From assembly GCA_947460365.1 (NCBI GenBank), contig CANHJH010000006.1, forward strand, positions 1 to 38,169: a DNA stretch of 38,169 bases, written 5' to 3'. Shown here in pieces: positions 10,320 to 12,922 of this stretch. Source of the stretch: Sphingobacteriia bacterium. GTDB lineage: Bacteria > Bacteroidota > Bacteroidia > Chitinophagales > Chitinophagaceae. Numbering within the stretch: the first letter of the stretch is position 1; each line of letters begins with the position of its first letter. A model generated the notes under the pieces. The model was not told the DNA's origin. It did not search any database and saw only the letters and a list, made by a program, of their open reading frames with translations. The position numbers and the translations under genes were made by a program.

Positions 10320-10622
10320 TCACCTAGCGATCCTTTCATATATCAGCTTTTTGTCTTTGTTGATAAATGGTAGAATATATGTAGAAATAGCATTACTAGA
10401 AACAAGGTCAATTTTTTTGTGTAGCTGATCTTCAAGATCAAGCTTCATATTTACAAAACCAAGACCAATATGTTTTGTGTAATCCAGTTCAACAAGTATA
10501 TCAATATCACTATTTTTATTTCCTTCCTCTCTTGCAAACGAACCAAATAAAAAAGCTCTCACTACGGGTTTTCCCTGAAAGTAATCATGAATTATTTTGA
10601 TTTCTTGATTAGAAAGTTTCAT
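10320..10622 (-). CDS. Minimal nucleotidyltransferase (MNT/MntA-like) domain protein
   Basis: 100 aa; canonical LFGSFAREEGNKNSDIDILVEL motif. Confidence 0.85.
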   Translation of the reverse strand: MKLSNQEIKIIHDYFQGKPVVRAFLFGSFAREEGNKNSDIDILVELDYTKHIGLGFVNMKLDLEDQLHKKIDLVSSNAISTYILPFINKDKKLIYERIAR

Positions 10623-10815
10623 ATAATAAAGTTAGGGGTTTATTTTATAATATTAAATATTTGAAACTCACTAATCATTATATAATGTTTACGTGTTTTA
10701 TGTGAAAGTTTATTTTACTTATAATCGCTAAAAATGAAAACGCCAATTAGTTTCGATGCTATTCTTTCTATGTATTACATTCAGATTTTTCACGTGCTTT
10801 TGTTGTTAGATTTTT

Positions 10816-11247
10816 CTAATATGAATGGTGTGCATTAAATTGCTCAACCACTAATTGTACAGCATAATTTTCATTGATTGTTTGCATTTCGATACATTCT
10901 ATTATTAAATGTATGTAGTGGTCTGATACTGTTTTTAAATCATCTATTATTATTTGGTTGTTGATTGTTTTATTGATTTCAAATACGGGTTGTGTTTGAT
11001 TAGGGTCTATAAAAAGATGTATGGGGAAAGTTTTTTCAAGCAACGCAGGCGAATTAATTACATTGTTTTTACTTGCCTTACATAATAATTTTCCCCTCAA
11101 CTGAATCATTGCACTTAGTTGCGTCCAATGGGTTTTATTTGTATCTTCTTGTACCAATGATATGGTTGATATGTGCACAAAGCTATCCGGTGCATGTAAT
11201 TGAAAGATGATTGAGGGAGTAGTTGGGGTTAGTGTAAGGGTTTGCAT
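10816..11247 (-). CDS. Hypothetical protein (143 aa)
   Basis: Open frame in the same orientation as its neighbours; no recognised domain. Confidence 0.5.
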   Translation of the reverse strand: MQTLTLTPTTPSIIFQLHAPDSFVHISTISLVQEDTNKTHWTQLSAMIQLRGKLLCKASKNNVINSPALLEKTFPIHLFIDPNQTQPVFEINKTINNQIIIDDLKTVSDHYIHLIIECIEMQTINENYAVQLVVEQFNAHHSY

Positions 11248-11323
11248 AGAGTTGTTTTAATTAATTGATGGCGTTGTGTTGTTTGTTTTATTATTGGTTA
11301 TACCTGATTGGCCAACATCATTT

Positions 11324-11663
11324 CACCCCTACGGGGCTTGGGTTTTGGGGTCAATTATTCATTCTATTATGATGTTGCCCCGCTGGGGCTTGTTCATTTG
11401 CCTTCCACAATTGCTATCTGTTCTGCCATCAACTCGTAACGCTGTTAAATCAATTGATTGATTTGGTTTTCTATTATGATGTTGCCCGCTGGGGCTTGTT
11501 CATTTGCCTTTCACTTTTGCAATCTCATACTTCGTCAATTCATACAACAGATAAACCATTTGGATAATTTATCTTTCGAAAACGAAATGCAGCTCCGGAG
11601 GAGCGATATCATAATAGCAGGTTTGAATCATAGATTTATTAAGCTCCGGAGGAGCGATATCAT
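11324..11663. repeat. REP-like hairpin cluster, left of RAYT (units L1 11364-11389, L2 11471-11495, R1 11592-11617, R2 11643-11663, plus CCCCTACGGGG at 11326-11336)
   Basis: Repeated CTATTATGATGTTGCCC(C)GCTGGGGC and GCTCCGGAGGAGCGATATCAT hairpins, with flanking text shared with the right-hand cluster. Confidence 0.85.
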
Positions 11664-12121
11664 CCAACCCATTCAAAAAGATATTTTTCATCGTATTCAA
11701 CATTAAATTTTTGTAATAAATCAAGATATTCCTCTTTAAATGTTTTCTTTTGATGATGTTGCTCCTGATTATTTATGTAGGCCATTACGTTATCTAATTG
11801 TGATTGTGCGTAAGAAAATGCACCAAACCCTTCCTGCCATTGAAATTTTTCTTTTATTAATCCTTTTTCATTTATCCATTTTGATGTATTTGCTTTGATA
11901 TCTCTCACTAATTCAGAAATAGCTATGTTTGGACTTATGCTTACAAGTATATGTATATGGTCCGGCATACCTCCAATGGCATATACTTTTTGTTTTTTTC
12001 CATTTACAATTCCACAGATGTATTTATGCAATTCGTCCTGCCATTTGTTTTGGATTAGGTTTTGTCGCCCTTTTACAGAAAACACAATATGTAAATATAT
12101 TTGGGTATATGTATTTGCCAT
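11660..12121 (-). CDS. REP-associated tyrosine transposase (RAYT) / IS200-like Y1 transposase
   Basis: 153 aa; HUH motif in GGMPDHIHILVSI; catalytic-Tyr region MAYINNQEQHHQKKTFKEEYLDLL; flanked by palindromic repeats. Confidence 0.9.
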   Translation of the reverse strand: MANTYTQIYLHIVFSVKGRQNLIQNKWQDELHKYICGIVNGKKQKVYAIGGMPDHIHILVSISPNIAISELVRDIKANTSKWINEKGLIKEKFQWQEGFGAFSYAQSQLDNVMAYINNQEQHHQKKTFKEEYLDLLQKFNVEYDEKYLFEWVG

Positions 12122-12143
12122 TTTGTATTGATTTTAATATTCA

Positions 12144-12327
12144 TTTCACCTCTACGGGGTTTGGGTTTTATGTTTTTTATTCATTCTATTATGATGTTGC
12201 CCCGCTGGGGCTTTTTTATTTGCCTTCCACAATTGCTATCTCATACTTCGTCAATTGATACAACAGATAAGCCATTTGGGCTGTTTATTTTTCAAAGCGA
12301 CCTGCAGCTCAGGAGGAGCGATATCAT
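12144..12327. repeat. REP-like hairpin cluster, right of RAYT (L3 12186-12211, R3 12307-12327, plus CCTCTACGGGG)
   Basis: Imperfect direct repeat of the 11.32-11.66 kb cluster, e.g. TTGCCTTCCACAATTGCTATCT and TCATACTTCGTCAATT.ATACAACAGATAA.CCATTTGG shared by both. Confidence 0.85.
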
Positions 12328-12331
12328 CCAA

Positions 12332-12922
12332 CTATTTCCTTTTTATCGAAAATATCATCACCGGTGGTTCAAAATATTGGTTTCGCTCTCTTTGCTCATA
12401 AATTTTCCGAACAATTTGCAAGCCTTTTGTTACTTGTGCAAAGGCGGCAAAACCTTGTTTGTCTGTAATGTTTTCTCCCCCATAATCAAAGCCCGGCTCT
12501 CTATCTAAACATATAAAAAACTCTGTACCTGCTGTTCCAGGTTCTGCCCTTGCCATCGATACTATTCCAACATCATGCTTTAGTCCGGTTTGTTTTGTAC
12601 TCTCATGCGGTATGCCTTTTACCCGCTGTGCCAATTCGTTATTGCTCTTCCAAATACCACCTTGTATTAAGAAAGATTTGGGGGCGTTAGAGGGTTGATT
12701 GTCGTTGTGCAATACCCGATAAAAATTTGCGCGCTCATACCAACCAGAATCTACATAACTTAAAAAAGCTGTGGCTGTTTTGGGCGCTTTATCTACAAAT
12801 AACTCTAAAGTAATATCGCCAAATTGTGTTTCTATAATTACTTGCGGGTTGCCCGTTGGCTTTTGTTCTTTACAAGCTAATAGCAGCATTATAATTGTAG
12901 AGGCGAATGCTATTTTTTTCAT
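12332..12922 (-). CDS. Cyclophilin-type peptidyl-prolyl cis-trans isomerase, putative lipoprotein
   Basis: Lipobox MKKIAFASTIIMLLLAC; ETQFGDITLELFVDKAPKTATAFLSYVDSGWYERANFYRV; GTAGTEFFI. Confidence 0.9.
   Translation of the reverse strand: MKKIAFASTIIMLLLACKEQKPTGNPQVIIETQFGDITLELFVDKAPKTATAFLSYVDSGWYERANFYRVLHNDNQPSNAPKSFLIQGGIWKSNNELAQRVKGIPHESTKQTGLKHDVGIVSMARAEPGTAGTEFFICLDREPGFDYGGENITDKQGFAAFAQVTKGLQIVRKIYEQRERNQYFEPPVMIFSIKRK

Follow-up and report, generated by a model that had tools for sequence, protein, structure and literature searches.

Hairpin arms at the genes of subclass 1.2 Y1 transposases: a probable REPtron-like locus in a Chitinophagaceae genome

Region 11300-12335 of the DNA analyzed here (38,169 nt from a Sphingobacteriia bacterium, contig CANHJH010000006.1, referred to as the window) contains eight short stem-loops around a 153-codon gene on the minus strand (tnpA, 11660-12121), and the question raised by this locus is which kind of transposase the gene encodes and whether the hairpins belong to that enzyme. 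The Y---Q--HH motif defines subclass 1.2, the sister of the IS200 transposases, and REP-associated transposases carry Y---NP (Quentin et al., 2018, PMC6006769). In Table 1 of that study, the REP entry for subclass 1.2 is "no", and according to its text subclass-1.2 genes are generally without terminal IS200 structures (Quentin et al., 2018, PMC6006769); the substrate and role of this subclass have been left open because it is listed without insertion-sequence ends and REP sequences. TnpA of the window matches Pfam Y1_Tnp (E=1.3e-30), passes the IS200 model of NCBIfam (78.7 against a cutoff of 55), has homologues of solved structure in the PDB (the ISDra2 and IS608 transposases), and fails the NCBIfam model of the REP-associated tyrosine transposase (REP_Tyr_transpos; 34.6 bits against a cutoff of 80). 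The Y motif, YINNQEQHH, occupies residues 115-123, and DHIH, WQ, and the length of 153 aa fit the description of subclass 1.2 (HuH motif DH[IV]H, WQ, ~148 aa); the alignable tail after HH in the homologues is a candidate for the conserved C-terminal extension of ~30 aa described for the subclass. Judged by the motifs DHIH, WQ, and Y---Q--HH, TnpA is a subclass 1.2 enzyme. The initial annotation had named the protein a RAYT, a name that does not apply in the strict sense; a class-2 RAYT label is contradicted by Y---Q--HH in place of Y---NP and by the failed REP-transposase model.

The hairpins were scored with a covariance model, R1, built from 54 sequences of 27 nt, two from the window and 52 from other genomes. 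The features of the locus are as follows, with scores of model R1.

11317..11338, plus strand: H1, decayed inner-type hairpin (ACCCC/GGGGC; 13.8 bits, E=0.19), 52 nt before L1
11364..11390, plus strand: L1, full L unit (29 bits), 107 nt before L2
11471..11496, plus strand: L2, L unit with one stem base deleted (from repeats and model R1)
11591..11617, minus strand: hairpin R1, outer hairpin of the 3' arm (CTATTATGAT head; 36 bits), 51 nt from R2
11642..11663, minus strand: R2, inner hairpin of the 3' arm (21.5 bits), without the CTAT head
11660..12121, minus strand: tnpA, 153-aa Y1 HuH transposase, by its motifs (DHIH, WQ, YINNQEQHH) of subclass 1.2
12141..12161, plus strand: H2, inner hairpin of the 5' arm (ACCTC/GGGGT; 15.4 bits, E=0.077)
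12186..12212, plus strand: L3, outer hairpin of the 5' arm (CTATTATGAT head; 29 bits), 51 nt from H2
12307..12327, minus strand: R3, R-type hairpin with one mismatch, directly 3' of the stop of a cyclophilin-type PPIase gene
11591..12212, no strand: putative core unit, i.e., outward-facing two-hairpin arm, tnpA, outward-facing two-hairpin arm (from arm counts at homologues)

All six hairpins named in the initial annotation are present, including R2, which overlaps the stop codon of tnpA (TGA, 11660-11662), but two tandem units, 11317-11338 and 12141-12161, had been missed. These units, H1 and H2, have the same orientation as L1 and L3, lie 50-52 nt upstream of them, and match model R1 weakly; they are 93% identical to each other over 29 nt, and H2, a member of repeat D6, lies 20 nt from the tnpA start, at the position of the upstream peak in homologues. 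The L units read CTATTATGATGTTGCCCCGCTGGGGC (11364-11389 and 12186-12211; one base shorter at 11471-11495) and differ from the R units on the reverse complement (11592-11617, 11643-11663, and 12307-12327) by one paired stem substitution (C-G to T-A) and by the loop. Across the window, model R1 gave E=8e-7 for 11591-11617, 4e-5 for both full L units, 0.003 for 11642-11663, and 0.014 for 11471-11496, scores of two model families that arise partly by construction, as the window's own sequences are in the training set; Rfam has no match within the window. The initial description, a Y1 transposase with REP-like hairpins on both sides that face each other in inverted pairs, holds: L2 and R1 form a pair of 147 bp (11471-11617) and L3 and R3 a pair of 142 bp (12186-12327), the two being 87% identical over 144 nt. 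However, two-hairpin arms on either side of the gene, together with duplicated pieces of such arms, describe the locus better than two BIME-like pairs do. H1, L1, L2, and R3, outside the core, look like such pieces, and we read the window as one core unit (11591-12212) within a rearranged array. Separately, the linkers of the L units (11390-11470, 11496-11591, and 12212-12306) have a common antisense frame ending ...IA[IK]V[EK]GK*, perhaps the remnant of a gene end that was carried along; coding linkers in the L-R pairs (antisense peptide ends ...YEIAxVxGK*) were considered as a candidate idea.

Whether such arms are a property of the gene was addressed at its homologues. A scan of genome contigs with a six-member protein alignment yielded 80 loci, with identities of 57-82%; they belong to Bacteroidota, Ignavibacteria, Verrucomicrobia, Desulfonema, and other groups, and 71 of the 80, from named genomes, have an intact Y---Q--HH frame. 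Hairpins were located with a plain finder without a sequence model, and 495 ends of other open frames at the same loci served as controls. A hairpin lies at most 150 nt from the stop codon at 65 of 70 homologues (93%), compared with 18% of the 495 control gene ends, which contradicts the published absence of an associated REP in subclass 1.2, a property reported for the subclass but outside its defining sequence features; at most 30 nt from the stop, the counts are 49/69 and 33/495, respectively (Fisher p=2e-32). On each side of the gene, hairpin positions fall into two peaks: an inner one at 0-30 nt from the edge of the gene and, ~50 nt beyond it, an outer one. Homologues conserve an inner hairpin at the stop, of which R2 is an example. 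Arms of two hairpins are present downstream at 43/71 and upstream at 45/71 loci, compared with 9/555 control ends, and the orientation is mainly outward (111 outward vs 32 inward upstream; 89 vs 42 downstream). When hairpins are oriented by the loop alone, their common context is CTAYAAANA[TG]GTC followed by a stem of 5 bp with a loop of 3 nt, and then one T, with the CTAYAA head carried mainly by the outer hairpin; the consensus at the stem foot is [TG]GTC, and the GT[AG]G tag is absent. Hairpins, with other stems and loops, are also present at more distant subclass-1.2 genes of the same order of bacteria. One explanation of such a placement is that the hairpins are transcription terminators or mRNA-stabilizing structures of tnpA and its neighbors, with no role in transposition, and the stop codons of both tnpA and the PPIase gene are indeed abutted by hairpins. 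However, a single T, and no T-run, follows the stem, hairpins are about as frequent upstream, a 13-nt single-stranded head is conserved, and the insertions are species-specific; this explanation is considered highly improbable.

The paired substitution between L and R had been taken as a sign of selection on the stem. The substitution is real, but in R3 (12307-12327) the mismatch is uncompensated (GCTCC/TGAGC). Among head-selected sites, one per locus and uncurated, 68% of pair cells are Watson-Crick, compared with 44% after shuffling of the 3' letters (sd 2.3; maximum of 1000 shuffles 51%). In the curated alignment A4 (41 rows, after 14 of 55 head-selected rows were removed by hand as lacking a hairpin, shifted in register, or near-duplicate), 42 cells are double-changed, compared with 14.2 after shuffling, and all five pairs are changed on both sides. 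Selection of the stems for pairing is thus borne out, and the paired substitution in the window is part of a general pattern.

In the genome of the window, model R1 has 38 matches with E<=1 on more than a dozen contigs, most of them outside the window. The expectation of genomic copies of both hairpins is accordingly supported for related hairpins, which are dispersed, but not for exact copies: exact L is confined to this locus, and exact R head-and-stem to this locus and contig C243. The L and R families are low-copy in this draft genome, which is 82% complete. In 17 other genomes, the number of matches with E<=0.1 ranges from 2 to at least 151 per genome. A second, longer repeat with the same type of head and other hairpins begins at or near the ends of contigs C37, C24, and C20 (L006 1-390, L007 1-395, and L135), which suggests that the assembly breaks at unassembled copies.

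The association is specific to the subclass within the genomes sampled. In eight genomes, R1 hairpins occur near 16 of 23 subclass-1.2 genes, the other seven having no R1 match nearby, and near none of 14 other Y1 genes (13 of class 2 and one other; p=2e-5), a comparison partly biased toward subclass 1.2 by the training of R1 on its loci. Among 61 relatives, a TnpA match is present in nine of ten hairpin-positive genomes, one of the nine being weak and partial, and in 9 of 51 hairpin-negative genomes (p=2e-5). Hairpin distance and TnpA distance are correlated (Spearman 0.30; permutation maximum 0.22), a result that either coevolution or shared descent would give. These counts bear on the explanation of the locus as a classical class-2 RAYT with canonical GTAG-tagged REPs, to which the overall REPtron-like arrangement and the inverted pairs would correspond. 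That explanation is already contradicted by Y---Q--HH in place of Y---NP, and the REP_Tyr_transpos score is below the cutoff, the stem foot reads [TG]GTC without the GTAG tag, and R1 hairpins are near 0/13 class-2 genes in the same genomes; hardly any credence is left for it.

Does the locus move, and as what? In several genomes of the same genus, the PPIase gene and uvrB are adjacent without tnpA between them, and the simplest reading is therefore that the tnpA locus was inserted here; a precise empty site was not found, relatives being either too diverged between genes or occupied by other palindromes at the same place. A single gene with a nucleotidyltransferase domain (PF18765/PF01909) and a 143-aa frame without a match also lie between uvrB and the hairpin array of the window (10320-11247); neither was found in the examined stretches from relatives of the same genus, in which uvrB is next to the PPIase gene. 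On contig C243, two remnants of tnpA share an internal deletion, and R-type hairpins accompany each of them. An ordinary IS200-type insertion sequence, in which arm, tnpA, and arm move as a unit and the hairpins are its ends, would be in line with the class 1 membership shared with IS200 transposases, with the absence of the locus from same-genus relatives, and with the internally deleted remnants on C243. However, the arms are mostly inverted, facing outward on opposite strands with at least two hairpins each; by contrast, the hairpins of IS200/IS605 ends are on the same strand. Furthermore, the genome has one intact copy of the window's tnpA, the second TnpA being 47% identical, and the hairpins are many-fold more numerous than tnpA. 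For subclass 1.2 as a whole, the published copy number is 1.7 per genome, with 36% identity (Quentin et al., 2018, PMC6006769), which likewise argues against an ordinary insertion sequence, and we regard this explanation as unlikely.

Copies without tnpA are seen in Flavobacterium hungaricum, in which dispersed elements of ~160 bp, bounded by the outer hairpins, consist of two outward-facing arms and repeat the four-hairpin layout. The intergenic site of one such pair lacks it in 15 sister genomes and holds nothing or other palindromes there. The orthologous site in the sister genomes (L273-L287) often has other long inverted repeats (TTTGTCAGGCTGAGCGAAGTCGAAGCCC, TGTCATCCTGAGGAACGAAGGATCACAC, and a type with CGACGAAGGAGAAATCTTC), resembling a hot spot of palindromic elements. 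In Desulfonema magnum (G061), elements with conserved inverted termini (CTGATTATAACGG) enclose many of the dispersed hairpins; in L172-L186, the termini are CTGATTATAACGGATTT / AAATCCGTTATAATCAG with REP-like hairpins inside, and four sites have apparent flanking direct repeats of 7-8 bp, read by eye (L176, GAATTATT; L177, AGAATTTT; L182, ATAAAAG; L185, TATTTTAT). Given these conserved outer termini and apparent flanking repeats, it was considered unsafe to take these copies as REPIN-like units moved by TnpA, and the elements may have been spread by another transposase. This species also has tandem arrays of 10 to more than 20 hairpin units with ~50-52 nt spacing (L188, L190, and L189), two of the three loci being away from any examined tnpA. 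The Desulfonema elements favor a more general explanation, MITE-like spread of the hairpins by an unrelated transposase, with gathering at tnpA due to shared mobility or shared sites. However, those inverted termini are absent from the D. magnum tnpA locus and from the ~50-nt tandem arrays, the place of the hairpin at the tnpA stop is fixed in many phyla, and the association is specific to subclass 1.2; MITE-like spread is very unlikely as a general explanation.

From the observed presence, layout, covariation, and conservation across phyla of the hairpins, the dispersal of tnpA-less pairs, and the subclass specificity within the genomes sampled, we conclude that the locus is probably REPtron-like: a subclass-1.2 Y1 (HuH) transposase, hairpins on which TnpA would act, and tnpA-less pairs that would be non-autonomous. 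The IS608 and TnpA_REP mechanism is the model for our proposal; CT is the cleavage site of the enzymes from E. coli and Stenotrophomonas (PMC8266576). Briefly, each side of the gene carries an outward-facing arm of two stem-loops ~50 nt apart, of which the inner abuts the gene and the outer has the CTAYAAANA[TG]GTC head directly 5' of a 5-bp stem with a 3-nt loop. TnpA would bind the stem-loops on single-stranded DNA, probably the lagging-strand template, and, by analogy with IS608 and TnpA_REP, would be guided by bases 5' of the stem. Cutting through Tyr115 would occur near the conserved CTAY head, which by the same analogy is a candidate cut site, or at another site chosen by the bases of the stem foot, and would lead to copying or moving of hairpin units, facing pairs without tnpA being the non-autonomous form. 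Neighboring units of the same orientation are 46-58 nt apart in 26 of 44 pairs, and a spacing of ~50 nt would fit repeated cutting and joining from one head to the next, as it would replication slippage. More tentatively, and as a possibility rather than an expectation, subclass-1.2 TnpA and inverted two-hairpin arms may constitute a distinct single-strand transposable unit between IS200/IS605 and REPtrons, in which arm-tnpA-arm is autonomous and the facing pairs in Bacteroidota, Ignavibacteria, Verrucomicrobia, and Desulfobacterota are tnpA-less derivatives.

For a subclass listed so far without IS ends or REPs, the hairpin arms are the likely substrate of an orphan enzyme, and their defined head, stem, and spacing make them amenable to in vitro work. 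Some of the short palindromic repeats of Bacteroidota and other phyla may, moreover, originate from them, and they provide a point of comparison for the change of an IS200-type enzyme into a REP enzyme. Hairpins for subclass 1.2 are described in no paper found in our literature search, whose coverage excluded most subscription journals.

The locus resembles the REPtron (TnpA_REP/RAYT with REP/BIME/REPIN) in having an HuH-Y1 gene between short hairpins, often in inverted pairs, in the dispersal of copies without tnpA through the genome, and in having one TnpA for each hairpin family; it differs in the subclass 1.2 protein (Y---Q--HH), the absence of the GTAG tag, the 5-bp stems and 3-nt loops, and the conserved two-hairpin arm with ~50-nt spacing and an inner hairpin at the stop codon. 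With IS200/IS605 (IS608 and ISDra2; TnpA of subclass 1.1), it shares the Y---Q motif, a protein of ~150 aa, subterminal hairpins, and bases 5' of the stem that could act as a guide, whereas the low copy number, the inverted multi-hairpin arms, and the hairpin families that outnumber the gene set it apart. CGTC-tagged REPs, for which the transposase was then not known, often have the tag TGTC and occur in some Bacteroidetes (Di Nocera et al., 2013, PMC3733652); however, they have stems of 8-9 bp starting with A-T pairs and CCA tails, neither of which is seen here, and an assignment of the hairpins to this type was dropped because stem length and tail differ. The published subclass 1.2 (PMC6006769) agrees with the present one in DHIH, WQ, YIxNQxxHH, ~150 aa, low copy number, and occurrence in Bacteroidota, although it was described without REP or terminal structures, which nearly all intact homologues in the present analysis were found to have. 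Y1 enzymes with REP-like hairpins are of a known kind; the occurrence of such hairpins as the rule in subclass 1.2, with the two-hairpin arm, appears to be new.
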